Part shown: positions 4,463 to 55,483 of the stretch, one piece after another | How positions within the stretch are numbered: position 1 is the first letter of the stretch | Layout: every line of letters starts with the position of its first letter | NCBI RefSeq assembly: GCF_002933815.1 | Contig: NZ_BEYR01000002.1 | Location: forward strand, 310,001 to 374,000 | DNA length: 64,000 nt | Origin: Sphingobacterium sp. HMA12 | Lineage (GTDB): Bacteria; Bacteroidota; Bacteroidia; Sphingobacteriales; Sphingobacteriaceae | Reading direction: 5' to 3' | Program-made: the position numbers and the translations under genes | Notes under the pieces: model-generated | The model's database searches: none | The model's input: only the letters and a program-made list of their open reading frames with translations | Told to the model about the DNA's origin: nothing

Positions 4463-4540
4463 GGAGGCTTAGCTCAGCTGGTTCAGAGCATCTGCCTTAC
4501 AAGCAGAGGGTCACTGGTTCGAATCCAGTAGCCTCCACCA
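4463..4540 (+). tRNA. tRNA-Val (anticodon TAC), copy 1, CCA encoded
   Basis: Complete cloverleaf of 75 nt (4463-4537) plus encoded CCA. Acceptor GGAGGCT pairs with AGCCTCC. The anticodon stem TCTGC/GCAGA encloses loop CTTACAA, giving TAC with U33, and the T-arm is ACTGG-TTCGAAT-CCAGT. Identical in body to copy 3. Confidence 0.97.
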
Positions 4541-4549
4541 TACAAAGAC

Positions 4550-4627
4550 GGAGAATTAGCTCAGCTGGTTCAGAGCATCTGCCTTACAAGCAGAGGGTCA
4601 CTGGTTCGAATCCAGTATTCTCCACCA
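4550..4627 (+). tRNA. tRNA-Val (anticodon TAC), copy 2 with altered acceptor stem, CCA encoded
   Basis: Same D, anticodon, variable and T arms as copies 1 and 3, but acceptor stem GGAGAAT/ATTCTCC. Two base pairs (5-68 and 6-67) are changed from G-C and C-G to A-T and A-T with full compensation. CCA is encoded at 4625-4627. It starts 9 nt after copy 1, in the same transcript. Confidence 0.97.
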
Positions 4628-4636
4628 ATCCAAAAC

Positions 4637-4711
4637 GGAGGCTTAGCTCAGCTGGTTCAGAGCATCTGCCTTACAAGCAGAGGGTCACTGGTTCGAATCC
4701 AGTAGCCTCCA
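4637..4711 (+). tRNA. tRNA-Val (anticodon TAC), copy 3, CCA not encoded
   Basis: The 75-nt sequence is identical to copy 1 up to the discriminator A (4711). The following bases are CAA, so the 3' end must be completed by CCA-adding enzyme, unlike copies 1 and 2. Confidence 0.97.
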
Positions 4712-4712
4712 C

Positions 4713-10236: not shown

Positions 10237-11034
10237 ATGGGAAAAGTAATCGCAATCGCAAACCAAAAGGGTGGGGTCGGAAAAACCACAACGTCAATTA
10301 ACTTGGCGGCTAGTTTGGCGGTTTTAGAATATAAAACATTGTTGGTGGATGCGGATCCTCAAGCAAACTCCACTTCTGGGATTGGTTTTGACCCTCGTAC
10401 AATCAATGAAAGTATATATGAATGTTTGGTTAATGATCTGAACCCAAGAGACGCTATTCAGTCCACTGAAACGCCCAATCTTGATCTTTTACCGGCTCAT
10501 ATTGACTTGGTAGGTGCAGAGATTGAAATGATCAATATGCACGAGCGCGAGTACAAGATGAAAAAGATCTTGGATCAAGTAAAAGATGATTATGACTTTG
10601 TCATCATTGATTGCTCACCCTCATTAGGATTAATTACCATTAATGCCCTATCAGCATCCGATTCAGTAATCATACCGGTTCAATGTGAGTATTTTGCATT
10701 GGAAGGTTTGGGGAAATTACTGAACACAATTAAAATTGTTCAAAACCGTTTAAATACTAGTTTGGAGATCGAGGGTATTTTATTGACGATGTATGATGTG
10801 CGTTTAAGGCTTTCCAATCAAGTTGTTGAAGAGGTGAAAACGCATTTTACTGATTTAGTTTTTGATACCATCATTCAACGTAATACCCGTTTAAGTGAAG
10901 CTCCTAGTTTCGGTATCTCTGTTATCATGCACGACGCCTCCTGTAAAGGTGCGATCAATTATTTGAATTTGGCGCGTGAAATATTGCAGAAAAACGGGCA
11001 TCTTAATGAAATGAATACAACAGTAACCGCATAA
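10237..11034 (+). CDS. parA: Chromosome-partitioning ATPase ParA (Soj)
   Basis: Deviant Walker ATPase that binds DNA non-specifically and moves ParB-parS complexes, 265 residues. Motifs: the deviant Walker A NQKGGVGKTT (residues 9-18, with the signature Lys11), LLVDADPQANST (Walker A' Asp), and FVIIDCSPSLG (Walker B). It is the first gene of a tight operon with parB (1 nt between stop and start) and a DUF5683 protein. parAB pairs of this type are chromosomal and usually lie near the replication origin; I saw no TGTTTCACGTGAAACA-like parS site in this window, so proximity to the origin is untested. Confidence 0.97.
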   Translation: MGKVIAIANQKGGVGKTTTSINLAASLAVLEYKTLLVDADPQANSTSGIGFDPRTINESIYECLVNDLNPRDAIQSTETPNLDLLPAHIDLVGAEIEMINMHEREYKMKKILDQVKDDYDFVIIDCSPSLGLITINALSASDSVIIPVQCEYFALEGLGKLLNTIKIVQNRLNTSLEIEGILLTMYDVRLRLSNQVVEEVKTHFTDLVFDTIIQRNTRLSEAPSFGISVIMHDASCKGAINYLNLAREILQKNGHLNEMNTTVTA

Positions 11035-11035
11035 T

Positions 11036-11971
11036 ATGGCAGCACATCAGCGTAAAACAGGACTGGGAAGAGGTTTAGGTGCGCTATTAAACGATAGTGT
11101 AGAAGCTCCTGCTAAAAATAATCAGCAAGTAGAGGAAGCTCCTCTAGTGACGCCCTCTACAGCAAATACAACGAAAGAAAATGGCAGCATCAGCCACGTC
11201 CGCGTAGAAGAAATATCGGTGAATCCGTTTCAACCTCGTACGGAATTTGATCCGGTTGCGTTACAGGAACTAGCTGAATCCATTAGCTTACAAGGTTTGA
11301 TCCAGCCGATTACCGTACGCAAAATTTCGAATGGAAACTACCAGTTGATCTCCGGGGAGCGACGTCTTCGGGCTTCAAGACTGGCGGGAATGACGGAGAT
11401 TCCAGCCTATATCCGTACGGCCAATGATCAGCAGATGCTGGAAATGGCATTGATCGAGAATATCCAACGTGAAAACTTAAATGCCATTGAAGTGGCATTA
11501 AGCTTCCAGCGCATGATCGAGGAATGTAATTTAAAGCAAGAGGAGTTGGGCGAGCGCGTCAGCAAAAACCGTTCGACGGTAACGAATTATTTGCGCTTAC
11601 TAAAACTTCCACCGGTCATCCAAGCAGCCATACGTGACGGAGCGCTGACTATGGGCCATGCGCGCGCATTGATCAATATCTCAGAAGTAGATAAACAGCT
11701 CTATATCTTTAAATTGATCATTGACCAAGGTCTTTCGGTTAGAAAAGCCGAAGAGCTGGTGCGTGAGCTTCAAAAAGGGGGTAAGAAAAAAGCTGGTAAG
11801 GACAAAACTCCAATGTCATTTCAGCTGCAGAAAATTGAAGATGATCTGGCTTCGAAATTTTCGTCAAGAGTGAAATTGAATTTAAAGAGCACCAAAGGTA
11901 AGGGAGCTATTGAGATTCCTTTCGAATCTGAGGATGATCTGAGCCGTATTCTTGAACTTTTAGATTGGTAA
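11036..11971 (+). CDS. parB: Chromosome-partitioning protein ParB (Spo0J)
   Basis: DNA-binding CTPase-type partition protein, 311 residues. It opens with GLGRGLGALL, the conserved ParB N-terminus that contacts ParA, followed by a variable linker. The ParB/Srx domain carries NPFQPR and LISGERRLRAS, where the GERR motif is the CTP site. A helix-turn-helix lies about residues 160-190 (QEELGERVSKNRSTVTNYLR), and a short C-terminal dimerisation domain follows. It starts 1 nt after parA and ends 1 nt before the DUF5683 gene, so the three are co-translated. Confidence 0.97.
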   Translation: MAAHQRKTGLGRGLGALLNDSVEAPAKNNQQVEEAPLVTPSTANTTKENGSISHVRVEEISVNPFQPRTEFDPVALQELAESISLQGLIQPITVRKISNGNYQLISGERRLRASRLAGMTEIPAYIRTANDQQMLEMALIENIQRENLNAIEVALSFQRMIEECNLKQEELGERVSKNRSTVTNYLRLLKLPPVIQAAIRDGALTMGHARALINISEVDKQLYIFKLIIDQGLSVRKAEELVRELQKGGKKKAGKDKTPMSFQLQKIEDDLASKFSSRVKLNLKSTKGKGAIEIPFESEDDLSRILELLDW

Positions 11972-35146: not shown

Positions 35147-35267
35147 ATTGTCGTTGATTGATTTCTGTCCTACGAAAGAATGAACTGAGTTTTTCCGTGT
35201 TATCGGATCATAACAATCAAAATATGGCGCTGTTTCGTAAGCCTCGGGCTTTCGGATGTAAAGTTTT

Positions 35268-35299
35268 AAATCTTAAATCTCAATACTCATATCTAAATA
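35268..35299 (+). repeat. 7-nt periodic repeat leading in phase into the xth start codon
   Basis: Four consecutive 7-mers, AAATCTT, AAATCTC, AATACTC, ATATCTA (35268-35295), each with CT at positions 5-6, then AATA and the ATG, so the start codon occupies the next unit's CTN slot. The same pattern and 4-nt spacing occur before rimM (52584-52622). Confidence 0.55.
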
Positions 35300-50868: not shown

Positions 50869-51795
50869 ATGAAATATGTAGTGGGTATTCTTCTATTGTC
50901 ATGTGCTACCTTTAATTATTCTTGTAAAAAAGACGGATCTGAAAAGGATAATACTCGACTTGTCTTATTTAAAAGTGCGACGCAATTTAATTCAGATATA
51001 AGTCAAAGTAGCTATGAGTTTCAATATGATGCCCAAGGGCGGGTAACAAAAGTGAATGAGCAACAGTTTCATTATGGGGCAAATGGGCGAGTCGATTATT
51101 CGCGTATTGCGCTCCAAGGTAAAACGGGCGGAATGGAAAGGGAGAAGATCGTGCGTTTAAGCTATCATTGGGATGAACAGAATCGTCTGAAGAGTGTATT
51201 TGTTGATAGTTTGTATAGTAAGAACTCGCCGATTAAAGATGGAATTAACAGTATTGGAAGTGAATCGCTCATTAAAGATAAATTATTAACAAGCTATTCT
51301 TATACTTCGAACATGTCTGTACCCTTCAAAATTGTCTATCGGAAACTGGAGAAATTCTATGAACAAATTGGAGAGGAGCAGGAGTTGACCTTTACCTATA
51401 ATGGCGATAATATCCAAAAACTGAAAAGCTTTCTATATTTCTCGTCGCTTTTCGATATTCCAGGAGACCCTAAACTTGAGTTCACCGTATTCTCCTTTTT
51501 TCAATATTCCACTACAATAAATCCTCTTTACCCTATTTACAAACAAATGGGGTTTAATCCGATTGATATTAATCAGGTTGTGTCCAAGAATTTGGAAAAT
51601 GCTTTTTTCTCTACCTCGGTCCAGGGAAAGACCAATCAAGAAATCCAGCCAGATTGGACAAAGAAAACAGCTGTAAAAATTACCTTGGGTGTTGACGGCA
51701 AAGCTAGTGCAATGAGTTATGTTGTAAAAGGAGATATTCAGGATGTTAAGGATGTCATTTTCAGCGAAGTTTTATTAAATTATGTCTATGAATAG
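50869..51795 (+). CDS. Predicted lipoprotein with YD-like repeat, unknown function
   Basis: Lipoprotein of 308 residues: signal MKYVVGILLLSCATFNYSC with lipobox Cys19 followed by KKDG, the usual Bacteroidota outer-membrane lipoprotein style. The N-terminal part contains two beta-hairpin-like YD repeats (YEFQYDAQGRVTKVN; LSYHWDEQNRLKSV), as seen in RHS-related and DUF4595-type cell-surface proteins. The remainder is unrecognised. Divergent from the addAB-like operon; the rpsP promoter box lies 11 nt after its stop and no terminator separates them. Confidence 0.7.
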   Translation: MKYVVGILLLSCATFNYSCKKDGSEKDNTRLVLFKSATQFNSDISQSSYEFQYDAQGRVTKVNEQQFHYGANGRVDYSRIALQGKTGGMEREKIVRLSYHWDEQNRLKSVFVDSLYSKNSPIKDGINSIGSESLIKDKLLTSYSYTSNMSVPFKIVYRKLEKFYEQIGEEQELTFTYNGDNIQKLKSFLYFSSLFDIPGDPKLEFTVFSFFQYSTTINPLYPIYKQMGFNPIDINQVVSKNLENAFFSTSVQGKTNQEIQPDWTKKTAVKITLGVDGKASAMSYVVKGDIQDVKDVIFSEVLLNYVYE

Positions 51796-51806
51796 AAAAA
51801 AATAAC

Positions 51807-51814
51807 TATCTTTG
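51807..51814 (+). promoter_or_regulatory. -7 box of the rpsP promoter
   Basis: TATCTTTG, full TAnnTTTG match, 58 nt before the rpsP ATG, just after the preceding stop. At the expected -33 distance only TATG is present. Confidence 0.5.
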
Positions 51815-51872
51815 CATCCCCTCTAGTATGAAGCTCGGGGGATATGTTGAATACATAAAATAAAATTAAGAA

Positions 51873-52394
51873 ATGGCAACTAAAATCAGATTGCAAAGAC
51901 ATGGTAAAAAAGGACGTCCTTTTTACCACGTAGTCGTAGCGGATTCTCGCGCTCCACGTGATGGTAAATTCATCGAACGTATTGGTTCTTACAACCCAAA
52001 CACAAATCCTGCAACTATCGTTTTGGATTTTGAAAAAGCTTTGGATTGGATGAATAAAGGTGCTCAACCTACTGACACAGCTCGTGCTATCCTTTCTTAC
52101 AAAGGTGTTCTTTACAAAAAACACTTACAAGGTGGTGTGAAAAAAGGTGCTTTTGACGAAACTGCTGCTGAAGCTAAATTCACTGCTTGGACTGAAGCTC
52201 AAGAAGCTAGAATCTCTGGTAAAAAAGATGGTTTAGCGCAATCAAAAGCTGATGCTAAAAAAGCTGCCTTAGCTGCTGAAGCGAAGAAAAAAGAAGAAAA
52301 AGCTGCTGCTGTAGCTGCTAAAAATGCTCCTGTAGCAGAAGAGCCTGCTGCTGAAGAGACTGAAGCTCCTGCATCAGAAGAAACTGAAGGTTAA
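51873..52394 (+). CDS. rpsP: 30S ribosomal protein S16 with extended C-terminal tail
   Basis: Ribosomal protein bS16, 173 residues. The first about 85 form the normal S16 fold ([42 protein letters not shown], with KIRLxRxG and the RxGxYxP motif). The last about 75 residues form a low-complexity Ala/Lys/Glu tail ([34 protein letters not shown]), roughly doubling the usual length; such tails occur across Bacteroidota S16 proteins. Codon use is strongly biased as for highly expressed genes (repeated GCT, GGT). Followed by a terminator, so rimM is transcribed separately or by read-through. Confidence 0.96.
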
Positions 52395-52415
52395 TTCTTT
52401 CATAAAGTATTCGAG

Positions 52416-52447
52416 AAAGCCGACTCAATCTTGAGCCGGCTTTTTTT
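52416..52447 (+). terminator. Terminator between rpsP and rimM
   Basis: AAGCCGACTCAA, 2-nt tip, TTGAGCCGGCTT (one A-C mismatch), then T7. It would limit read-through into rimM. Confidence 0.85.
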
Positions 52448-52583
52448 AATAAACTTGTTTATGGGTTAAAATGGAATGCTGATTGCGCTACGCATACGCA
52501 AAGGCTGGCCATACCATTATATCTTCATACAAAAAGGTGAAAATTAAATAGATGCTCGGTATATAGCGAAGCTGATAAAAATA

Positions 52584-52622
52584 GCATCTCAATACTAATA
52601 TCTCAAAACGCAATACTACCAA
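52584..52622 (+). repeat. 7-nt periodic repeat leading in phase into the rimM start codon
   Basis: Five 7-mers, GCATCTC, AATACTA, ATATCTC, AAAACGC, AATACTA (52584-52618), with CT (once CG) at positions 5-6, then CCAA and the ATG. Same period, phase and 4-nt distance to the ATG as before xth. Confidence 0.55.
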
Positions 52623-53147
52623 ATGACTGTCGATCAAAGTTTTTATATAGGCTACATCAGCAAAACGAGAGGTCTTAAAGGCGAAATGCAATTGTTTTTC
52701 GAATTTGAAGACTACGAAAGCCTGGATATGGATGTCGTTTTCCTGGAGGTCAACAAAAAGCTTGTGCCTTATTTTATCGATGCTATAAAACTGCAGAAAA
52801 ATAGTACGGCCTATGTGACATTTGAAGATGTCGATCACATCGACAAGGCACAGGTACTTGTCCGCAAAAAGGTTTATCTACCTAATGATAAAATGCCAGA
52901 ACGGGATCCAGATGATTTTAGATATACGGATTTAATCGGCTTTTTGGTGATCGATGAAACTCATGGTGAGCTGGGAGAAATTACGGATGTACAGGAATTT
53001 CCACAGCAATTCGTCGCCACAGTTGATATGAATGGTAAAGAATTGATGTTCCCGCTATCCGATGATTTAATTTTAGGAATAGATGGTGAAGAAGAGATTA
53101 TTGAAGTCGCATTGCCTGAAGGGCTAGTCGATCTCTATAAAGAATAA
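52623..53147 (+). CDS. rimM: Ribosome maturation factor RimM
   Basis: 16S rRNA processing factor that binds S19 in the 30S head, 174 residues. N-terminal RimM domain: FYIGYISKTRGLKGEMQLFFEF (family signature G-x-I-x-KxxGLKGE), then LVRKKVYLP; C-terminal PRC-barrel: FRYTDLIGFLVIDETHGELGEITDVQEFPQQFVATVDMNGKELMFPLSDDLI. Located after rpsP, the classical rpsP-rimM neighbourhood, but trmD and rplS do not follow. An rpsP terminator lies between, and the 5' leader carries the heptad repeat, suggesting independent control. Confidence 0.95.
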   Translation: MTVDQSFYIGYISKTRGLKGEMQLFFEFEDYESLDMDVVFLEVNKKLVPYFIDAIKLQKNSTAYVTFEDVDHIDKAQVLVRKKVYLPNDKMPERDPDDFRYTDLIGFLVIDETHGELGEITDVQEFPQQFVATVDMNGKELMFPLSDDLILGIDGEEEIIEVALPEGLVDLYKE

Positions 53148-53162
53148 CAGAGACGGTCTTAG

Positions 53163-53270
53163 CTCTTAAATCCCTTGTCCAGACCGGGATTTAAGAGTAT
53201 TTCTTGATTCGCGTAAATACCAACAAACAGGTTCAAATTCGTAAGCGAGGTTTTGAACCTATTTTTGTTT
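53163..53270 (+). terminator. Two tandem hairpins downstream of rimM
   Basis: Hairpin 1: CTCTTAAATCCC (53163-53174) with GGGATTTAAGAG (53186-53197), perfect 12 bp, 11-nt loop, weak T tract. Hairpin 2: AGGTTCAAA (53229-53237) with TTTGAACCT (53252-53260), then ATTTTTGTTT. The second resembles a terminator more than the first. Confidence 0.7.
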
Positions 53271-53395
53271 CATTGGGTTTAGGTCACAATTATTGGCTGA
53301 ATTCACTTGTCGAAATGATCTGGTGTATCTTACTTTGACGGATTTTGAGTATATTGGTACTAAATAATCAATATATTGACCATACTAAATGATCC

Positions 53396-54250
53396 GTGTT
53401 GAGACCATTATTGATCCTTATTTCAACGATATTTTTGTCCTCCTGTATTTTTCTGGGAAAGGACAAGGAGTTTCCGACCGGAAATTACCAGGTTATCTGC
53501 GGTTATACCAATGAGGTTTATTTAAAGGCTAAAGCCGATAATCCGCTCAATGTTGAGCCTGATGCCCGTTGTGATCATCCGCTTTATCATCGTTCCTTTC
53601 TTTCCCTTCAGGATAAAGACCATTTTGTCCTCGCCATAGACGATATCCTGCTGTATGGTAAATACGCATTTAACAGAAATAAACTTGAGCTTATAGATGC
53701 TGCAAAGGGAAAACTTTCCTTGGATATTATCCAGGTAAAAAAGGATTTTGTGCAATTGAAAGGTGATTTCTCTCCGTTCAACTCTGCGCATTTGCCAAAT
53801 ACCGAACGATTGTATATCAATTTCGAATTGGACAAGACACCTATTCGCGAGCAGCCAAGTAAATTTGATAGTGGAATCAACCTTTGGCGTAATATTCCAA
53901 CAAAAGCTGAGAATGACCAAGAGATAAAGGCCCGTGCATTGAATTTTTTAGATTATTCAATTGCCTATTTTCAGCACATCTCTAATTCTGGCGTTCATGA
54001 TGATTACAAGATAGACGGAGTTGAATCGCCGATTACCTATGCCCAAAATGGAATTGTATTAAAGGAATGGGAAGATGTTCCCGTCTCGTGGAAGGAGCTG
54101 TTTTACAATGAGGAGAATGCATTGGTCGCCTATAAATATTTGCTGGCTGGATTTAAGTATGGACAAAAGGAGAAGTATAGTGTGAAGGGGCTGCTATTAA
54201 TTACATTTTATTTGAAGAATTTACGTAACTCACTATCGACTTTGGGATAA
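53396..54250 (+). CDS. Predicted lipoprotein, unknown function
   Basis: 284 residues beginning with a GTG (or TTG one codon later). Lipoprotein signal MLRPLLILISTIFLSSC with lipobox Cys17. The mature part has no repeat or motif I recognise. The segment CGYTNEVYLKAKADNPLNVEPDARCDHPLYHRSFLSL holds two further Cys, and the C-terminal 100 residues look helical (ALNFLDYSIAYFQHISNSG; LVAYKYLLAGFKYGQKEKYSV). Codon use is like the neighbours. It lies between rimM and the riboswitch of metF, on the same strand, probably transcribed alone. Confidence 0.68.
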   Translation: MLRPLLILISTIFLSSCIFLGKDKEFPTGNYQVICGYTNEVYLKAKADNPLNVEPDARCDHPLYHRSFLSLQDKDHFVLAIDDILLYGKYAFNRNKLELIDAAKGKLSLDIIQVKKDFVQLKGDFSPFNSAHLPNTERLYINFELDKTPIREQPSKFDSGINLWRNIPTKAENDQEIKARALNFLDYSIAYFQHISNSGVHDDYKIDGVESPITYAQNGIVLKEWEDVPVSWKELFYNEENALVAYKYLLAGFKYGQKEKYSVKGLLLITFYLKNLRNSLSTLG

Positions 54251-54354
54251 TTTAGTTGGATAAAGCCATAAGAAAGACAGCTTTATTGATATAATTTATA
54301 GATTTTCGAAAAAATATTTTTGTTGTTTGGTTTTTTAAAACGATATTAGCAACG

Positions 54355-54453
54355 CTTATAGAGAAAGGCCGAGGGACTAGACCCAGTGAAGCCTTAGCAA
54401 CCTGTATTGTTCAAGGTGCTAAATTCTACCCTGCTCCATGTGGGAAAGATAAG
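54355..54453 (+). ncRNA. SAM-I (S-box) riboswitch upstream of metF
   Basis: P1 is CTTAT (54355-54359) with ATAAG (54449-54453). Then GAGAAAGGCCGAGGGACTAG, the K-turn and P2 core, and ACCCAGTGAAGCC-TTAGCAACC, the near-invariant SAM-I motif. P3 is formed by TAGCA...GGTGCTA, P4 by CCC...GGG before AAAGATAAG. The order and spacing match the family and the downstream gene is methionine-pathway metF, so SAM should switch expression off. No U-tract terminator is visible between P1 and the ATG; a TTACAT/ATGTAA pair lies in the linker, so control may be translational. Confidence 0.93.
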
Positions 54454-54526
54454 TTACATGCAGATAGACATATCCTCGACTTGTGCGTTTCGATGTAAGC
54501 CAACCCAAACTTAAAACAGTTTTTTA

Positions 54527-55483
54527 ATGAAGATTACCGACCATATCCAGAATGCTAAAGGAAAAACATTGTTTTCTTTTGAGCTATTGCCTCCTGCCAA
54601 AGGACAAGGCATCCAAAGTATTTTTAAAACAATGGATGAACTGATGGAATTTAAGCCACCTTTTATAGATGTAACCTATCATCGTGAAGATTACATCTAT
54701 AAGGAACATGCGAGCGGGCTATTGGAACGTGTATCCTATCGTAAGCGGCCGGGAACTGTCGCGATATGTGCTGCTATCATGAATAAATATAAGGTAGACG
54801 CAGTCCCGCACCTGATATGCGGTGGCTTTACCAAAGAGGAAACGGAAAATGCTTTGATCGACCTAAATTTTCTGGGTATTGACAATGTATTGGTGCTGCG
54901 AGGTGATGCGCGCAAAGGAGATGCTGATTTTATTCCGACTGAAGGCGGTCATGCTTTTGCAACGGATCTATTGGAACAGGTCACGGATATGAATAAGGGG
55001 AAGTATCTCCACGAAGATATAATTACATCTGAAAAAACTGATTTTTGTATCGGAGTTGCGGGATATCCGGAGAAACATTTTGAATCGCCTAATTTCAACA
55101 CGGACTTTAAATACCTGAAGCAGAAAGTCGATATGGGGGCCGAATTTATTGTGACGCAGATGTTCTTTAATGTAGAAAAATATAAGGAATTTGTGACCAA
55201 ATGCCGCGACAACGGAATTCATGTACCTATTATTCCGGGACTCAAACCTTTGACGACCAAAAAACAGTTGGTTACATTGCCACGAATTTTCCACTTGGAT
55301 ATTCCAGAGGAATTGAGTGATGCAGTTGCATCATGTAAAACCAATGCTGATGTGAGGCAAGTAGGTGAAGAATGGCTTGTGCAGCAATGTCAGGAACTGA
55401 TTAAATTTGGTGCGCCAGTGTTGCATTTTTATACCATGAGCAATCCCGGACCAACGAAAAAGATCGTTGAAAAATTGGCCTAA
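54527..55483 (+). CDS. metF: Methylenetetrahydrofolate reductase [NAD(P)H]
   Basis: Reduces 5,10-methylene-THF to 5-methyl-THF, the methyl donor for methionine synthase. FAD enzyme of the MetF TIM-barrel family, 318 residues. Motifs: FSFELLPPAKGQG (F-E-xxPP start), PFIDVTYH (VT-H), AVPHLICGGFTKEETENAL (HL-C), NVLVLRGDARKGD (ALRGDxP-like), FCIGVAGYPEKHFESPNF (GVAGYPExH), MGAEFIVTQMFFNVEKY (ADFxxTQxFF), VPIIPGLKPLTTKKQL (PGIxP). Controlled by the SAM-I riboswitch immediately upstream. No metE/metH in view. Confidence 0.96.
   Translation: MKITDHIQNAKGKTLFSFELLPPAKGQGIQSIFKTMDELMEFKPPFIDVTYHREDYIYKEHASGLLERVSYRKRPGTVAICAAIMNKYKVDAVPHLICGGFTKEETENALIDLNFLGIDNVLVLRGDARKGDADFIPTEGGHAFATDLLEQVTDMNKGKYLHEDIITSEKTDFCIGVAGYPEKHFESPNFNTDFKYLKQKVDMGAEFIVTQMFFNVEKYKEFVTKCRDNGIHVPIIPGLKPLTTKKQLVTLPRIFHLDIPEELSDAVASCKTNADVRQVGEEWLVQQCQELIKFGAPVLHFYTMSNPGPTKKIVEKLA

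Follow-up and report, generated by a model that had tools for sequence, protein, structure and literature searches.

A degenerate heptad array before rimM in Sphingobacterium sp. HMA12 and a dispersed family of intergenic heptanucleotide repeats

The rimM leader and its counterparts in relatives

The window, i.e., the whole 64,000-nucleotide stretch of the Sphingobacterium sp. HMA12 genome that was analysed, contains the rpsP and rimM genes, and the region between them holds an inverted repeat and an array of heptads (Table 1). Direct reading of the sequence bore out the original prediction of five heptads before rimM, with regard to both their coordinates and the 4 nt that separate them from the ATG. 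It had also been claimed, correctly, that AATACT occurs in the leaders of both rimM and xth and that the last heptad of each ends 4 nt before the ATG. The inverted repeat predicted between rpsP and rimM is present and nearly invariant in relatives, with no substitution in 44-45 aligned nt in five of seven relatives, and with one and four substitutions in the remaining two. In addition, a possible stem adjoins the first rimM heptad on its 5' side and overlaps it; among eight sequences, a two-sided change was seen at one of the nine predicted pairs of this stem.

Table 1. Coordinates of the repeat arrays and neighbouring features in the window.
Feature	Position	Strand	Basis or remark
Hairpin TAAGCC-TC-GGGCTT, family type, 5' of the xth heptads	35238..35251	+	
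Heptads AAATCTT AAATCTC AATACTC ATATCTA before xth (ATG 35300)	35268..35295	+	
rpsP (30S ribosomal protein S16)	51873..52394	+	NF011094
Inverted repeat then T7, 3' of rpsP, probable terminator	52408..52451	+	
Possible stem AGATGCT/AGCATCT, 52550-52556 with 52583-52589	52550..52589	+	Weak
Five degenerate heptads before rimM: GCATCTC (52584-52590), AATACTA (52591-52597), ATATCTC (52598-52604), AAAACGC (52605-52611), AATACTA (52612-52618)	52584..52618	+	Sequence; orthologues
CCAA gap and rimM ATG (52623)	52619..52625	+	ATG position same in relatives
rimM	52623..53147	+	TIGR02273, 101.3 bits, cut-off 66.2

Elsewhere in the window, a tandem repeat of period 87 at 4469-4712 resembles two to three consecutive tRNA genes, and ORFs that appear parA- and parB-like by eye (10237-11971) are consistent with an origin-side position of the window. 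Positions 51000-54500 were compared with Rfam 15 at the gathering score; no match was found at the rimM leader, and the sole sequence to pass was a SAM riboswitch (RF00162, 68.7 bits) at 54353-54455, before an ORF at 54527 that by eye is methylenetetrahydrofolate reductase-like. Scans for sigma-70 promoters and terminators gave no useful result for this phylum.

When the window alone is considered, the rimM heptads do not differ significantly from chance. AATACTA occurs seven times in the window, where 9.2 occurrences are expected, and thus shows no enrichment, and a score as high as that of the rimM array is reached at seven separate places in the 64 kb. Tandem Repeats Finder at score 30 did not report the array, which is therefore a poor fit to a perfect microsatellite (SSR/LSSR). 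With the genome and the relatives included, the heptads are beyond chance.

A protein search yielded 53 rimM loci, mostly from Sphingobacterium. Heptads, some of them worn, precede rimM at the same place and in the same phase in all 12 nearest named loci (L002-L013). For example, five heptads with one substitution relative to the window are present in S. puteale and S. athyrii, four in S. prati, which is exactly 7 nt shorter, and four worn units behind a much shorter spacer in the S. multivorum group. Between HMA12 and S. athyrii, the heptads differ at 1 of 34 sites, the spacer at 24 of 129 and the four-fold sites at 8 of 57; the corresponding values for S. puteale are 1/34, 19/129 and 10/59. 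The remaining relatives show a similar pattern of divergence, though these comparisons are not independent. The slow divergence of the heptads in these alignments may be a sign of constraint, although the same could hold for any stretch so near a start codon.

An exact TAnnTTTG box, which we take to be the consensus of the Bacteroidota -7 box, is absent from the 228 nt before the rimM ATG, where one match with a single mismatch lies at 52450. Likewise, none of the 12 heptad-bearing loci L002-L013 has an exact box. It was found in 17 of 18 loci from more distant species (L014-L031), in which a promoter-like stretch replaces the heptads. Transcription of rimM may start from a promoter of its own or result from read-through of the rpsP terminator.

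A dispersed family of heptad arrays

A genome-wide scan, as proposed with the original prediction, confirmed that the repeat recurs elsewhere. Three successive units of the pattern AWWWCTM, with at most one mismatch, matched 54 times in the 6.47-Mb genome versus nine times for a reversed-pattern control, and the matches collapse to 31 distinct arrays. In 36 Sphingobacterium genomes, the exact pattern gave 361 matches versus 18 for the control (per-genome rows were summed, and overlapping matches counted separately), and 24 of the 36 genomes have at least one match. At the family level, matches occur in 103 of 151 genomes, a figure that is not specific because the reversed control is equally high in some genomes. 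In the open-licence literature, we found nothing on a heptad repeat of Sphingobacterium.

The typical units are AATACTM, ATATCTM and AAATCTM. In most HMA12 copies, an A-rich arm is followed by GTAAGCC-nnn-GGCTTGTACAACC, then by AAAATCTC and more heptads, and finally, mostly after 2-7 bases, by the gene. The hairpin that precedes the heptads reads AAGCC-nnn-GGCTT in most copies. At xth, the second member of the family in the window, the stem is AAGCC/GGCTT in HMA12 and AAGTC/GACTT in S. athyrii, which is a compensatory difference. Over 18 copies, two pairs are changed on both sides, versus 0.4 in shuffles, and 26 of 500 shuffles were as high; the covariation of the predicted hairpin is suggestive only. 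A covariance model built on the hairpin and the first heptads, and used to score 150 of 2014 first-look candidates, matched 37 places at E ≤1. The rimM copy, which was outside the training set of the model, is a weak match (E 0.083) at C2:362551-362604, equivalent to 52551-52604 of the window. A motif-blind autocorrelation at period 7 in the sequences before start codons gave a z of 2.9 on contig C2 (211 leaders) and 0.2 on contig C1 (171 leaders), and no rise was seen at stop codons (z -0.8 on C2).

Orientation, turnover and chromosomal distribution

Gene edges were defined by simple ORF calling, with no annotation, and one HMA12 array inside a called ORF (1/31) and four S. mizutaii arrays were dropped. 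The arrays are polarised. A gene edge lies within -20 to +25 nt of the 3' side in 28 of the 30 intergenic HMA12 arrays and of the 5' side in two, and the nearer edge is on the 3' side in 26 of 30 (p = 6e-5). In 21 cases the edge in question is a start codon, with a gap that is most commonly 4-6 nt, and in nine it is a stop codon whose gene runs on the opposite strand. None of the 30 arrays is located between convergent genes, an arrangement found in 28 of 189 longer intergenic regions in the sampled part of C2. In S. mizutaii, too, the 3' side is the one nearer to a gene edge in 31 of 38 arrays (p = 1e-4); 25 of the 38, often as inverted arrays, lie between convergent genes and thus between two stop codons; the sample consisted of 17 regions picked for holding arrays. 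At L155-L159 of this species, long inverted heptad arrays fill the convergent intergenic regions and show, by eye, a higher-order periodicity of about 45-50 nt.

The arrays also adjoin rRNA genes. In S. athyrii, the 23S-5S spacer holds an array directed at 5S on three contigs, and on one contig an array separates a tRNA from the 16S 3' end, so translation is not the common function. These rRNA-operon arrays of S. athyrii (G015) are found at L201, L202, L203 and L204:668-712. In HMA12, a gene that is ruvX-like by eye has the -7 box TACTTTTG between the heptads and the ATG, and its array would therefore sit upstream of transcription. The original prediction placed the repeat in a leader that probably belongs to rimM's own mRNA and named recurrence elsewhere as a check; the recurrence stands, and a leader role as the general rule does not, given the 9 of 30 arrays that face antisense stops, the rRNA spacers and the ruvX-like copy. 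The polarity rule embraces starts, stops and rRNA genes.

Comparison of eight arrays between HMA12 and S. athyrii revealed differences at 0 of 28 to 13 of 21 sites, some arrays being near-identical and others hardly alike; therefore, we claim no general purifying selection. The array at C6:140040 differs in length by exactly 7 nt between the two species, and at C2:392668 the units have been replaced in the same register, with differences at 9 of 21 sites.

At ilvC, a gene assigned by eye on its first residues, the leader has been replaced altogether. HMA12 and 13 other genomes have a conserved leader free of heptads, a leader with hairpin and heptads is common to S. athyrii and genome G217, whose other genes differ, and G024 has a short heptad leader. 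In the pairwise alignment, a 67-nt block of hairpin and heptads separates S. athyrii from HMA12. We rejected a clean insertion, since the comparison of 17 genomes revealed that the A-rich stretch and the end of the upstream gene differ too; with the upstream gene's end also different, we read the change as a spacer exchange. The two forms of the leader across the 17 genomes (L091 near 4312; L216-L231) are unrelated, and the heptad form is patchy. Such a patchy distribution suggests that leaders may be exchanged by recombination. Inspection of the compared sequences by eye revealed neither target duplications nor terminal repeats.

The arrays are unevenly distributed over the HMA12 chromosome. 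Contig C1, which makes up 3.2 of the 6.47 Mb, is free of arrays (p about 7e-10 with sites assumed to be uniform and independent), and all 31 are on other contigs, of about 2.6 Mb. Only one of the 37 covariance-model matches, a weak one, lies on C1, and in 440 kb sampled from this contig three two-mismatch matches were obtained versus five for the control. At about 1.4 Mb of C1, the GC skew changes sign, from plus to minus, in a terminus-like manner, and C1 appears to span the chromosome terminus. In S. mizutaii, the arrays extend from 0.14 to 3.92 Mb of the 4.65-Mb chromosome with no clear gap, among the matches listed (100 of 114).

Known systems and possible explanations

The closest known system is that of the TAACTGA heptamer direct repeats (MacGregor 2015, PMC4679880), which occur in Beggiatoaceae, cyanobacteria and five Bacteroidetes. 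These repeats resemble the Sphingobacterium arrays in their tandem 7-base units, mostly intergenic position and unrelated gene functions; many lie a few nt before starts and some beside stops, no exchange mechanism is evident, and strains differ by 7-nt indels, as seen here at S. prati rimM and C6:140040 (PMC4679880). On the other hand, the TAACTGA copies described there are identical, whereas the Sphingobacterium unit AWWWCTM lacks G and occurs in mixed degenerate variants, and the Sphingobacterium family differs further from that description in the hairpin and A-rich arm before the array, the arrays in rRNA spacers and a fixed polarity to stops as well as starts (PMC4679880). The TAACTGA trait of being mostly forward and near a start is found in 21 of 30 HMA12 arrays; of the 38 S. 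mizutaii arrays sampled, 25 have a stop codon on either side. The string 'sphingobacter' does not occur in the main text of PMC4679880. Among the long simple sequence repeats of Mrazek 2007, as cited in PMC4679880, those with heptanucleotide units form the most abundant class, and slippage by 7 nt has been proposed for them; they are near-perfect and long, whereas the Sphingobacterium arrays are short and worn, with a sequence common to sites. Thus, heptamer repeats are a known kind, and what is new relative to TAACTGA is the unit, its degeneracy, the hairpin and the polarity.

The STRR heptanucleotide repeats of heterocystous cyanobacteria are likewise dispersed intergenic tandem repeats, with units unlike those of Sphingobacterium. 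REP/BIME elements with their RAYT transposase are short dispersed intergenic repeats bearing hairpins, and tandem heptads are not part of REPs. Identity with the REP/RAYT system was rejected, as Y1_Tnp (PF01797) gave no match in the HMA12 genome; five of 14 control genomes were matched.

We consider it probable that the rimM array is one copy of a lineage-specific, dispersed intergenic heptanucleotide family that evolves through 7-nt steps and the exchange of spacers and is tolerated as a passive leader. Because the same repeat is found at the edges of about 30 other genes, at starts and ends alike, the array looks like a spreading, slippage-prone spacer rather than a rimM switch, and not like a dedicated regulatory site or translation leader. 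Slipped-strand replication would allow the arrays to grow and shrink in 7-nt steps, homologous recombination would swap whole spacers between species, and selection would retain only those copies that end short of the gene, which would amount to tolerance and not to selection for function. At rimM, the heptads would be part of the transcribed leader and could offer ribosomes a passive landing stretch, A/U-rich, AUG-free and weakly folded, in a phylum with no Shine-Dalgarno sequence. A-rich, AUG-poor starts without Shine-Dalgarno are normal for this phylum (PMC6847099). However, free slippage and random insertion fail to account for the CT strand pointing into the gene and for the small gap, and the absence of arrays from C1 is also not accounted for by this explanation. 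The slow divergence of the rimM heptads, with its hint of constraint, counts against it as well.

A regulatory translation leader, in which the heptads would be repeated sites for S1, a cold-shock protein or another RNA-binding protein and would define a regulon including rimM and xth, seems unlikely. The start codon faced by 21 of 30 arrays, most commonly at 4-6 nt, and the slow divergence of the rimM heptads would agree with it, and the same idea has been put forward for the TAACTGA repeats (PMC4679880); however, nine arrays face antisense stop codons, the ruvX-like copy is followed by a -7 box, most of the sampled S. mizutaii arrays occupy convergent intergenic regions, arrays exist in rRNA spacers, the ilvC leader can be a wholly unrelated sequence, and several start-side arrays are poorly conserved. 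It is similarly improbable that hairpin and heptads constitute a small mobile or copied non-autonomous element, inserted with fixed polarity at gene edges by an enzyme or through gene conversion. The dispersed copies do have the A-rich arm, hairpin and heptads in common, as the 37 model matches attest, and a 67-nt block of hairpin and heptads sets S. athyrii apart from HMA12 in the pairwise alignment at ilvC, but a genome without Y1_Tnp does not have the usual REP/RAYT system, the compared sequences lack visible target duplications or terminal repeats, and in 17 genomes the ilvC case is a whole-leader swap. Distinctly unlikely, in our judgement, is a polarised element that seeks gene edges, to which transposition, template switching or gene conversion would add heptads with the CT strand running into any gene edge, be it the start or the stop of a coding or an rRNA gene, and in this clade chiefly on the half of the chromosome away from the terminus.

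Sites bound by protein, or structured DNA, with a role in the nucleoid, recombination or replication, would fit both the polarity, strongly marked in two species, and a restriction to part of the chromosome, as implied by the absence of all 31 arrays from C1 and by its terminus-like skew switch at about 1.4 Mb. We nevertheless regard this possibility as very unlikely: the S. mizutaii arrays, among the matches listed, are spread from 0.14 to 3.92 Mb of 4.65 Mb, the polarity tracks gene edges, oddly for a nucleoid signal, and C1 may just hold more accessory genes. Chance low-complexity sequence before rimM, with which the window statistics alone would be compatible, is extremely improbable, as place and phase are conserved in relatives, the genome-wide excess over the control already disfavours it, and the model matched the rimM copy, albeit weakly, from outside its training set.

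If the explanation as a tolerated, slippage-prone spacer is true, the leaders of Sphingobacterium core genes such as rimM, xth and, in S. athyrii, ilvC would belong to an exchangeable spacer family, and the heptads would supply variants of leader length in 7-nt steps. It would also call for caution, in that such repeats should not be taken for binding sites.
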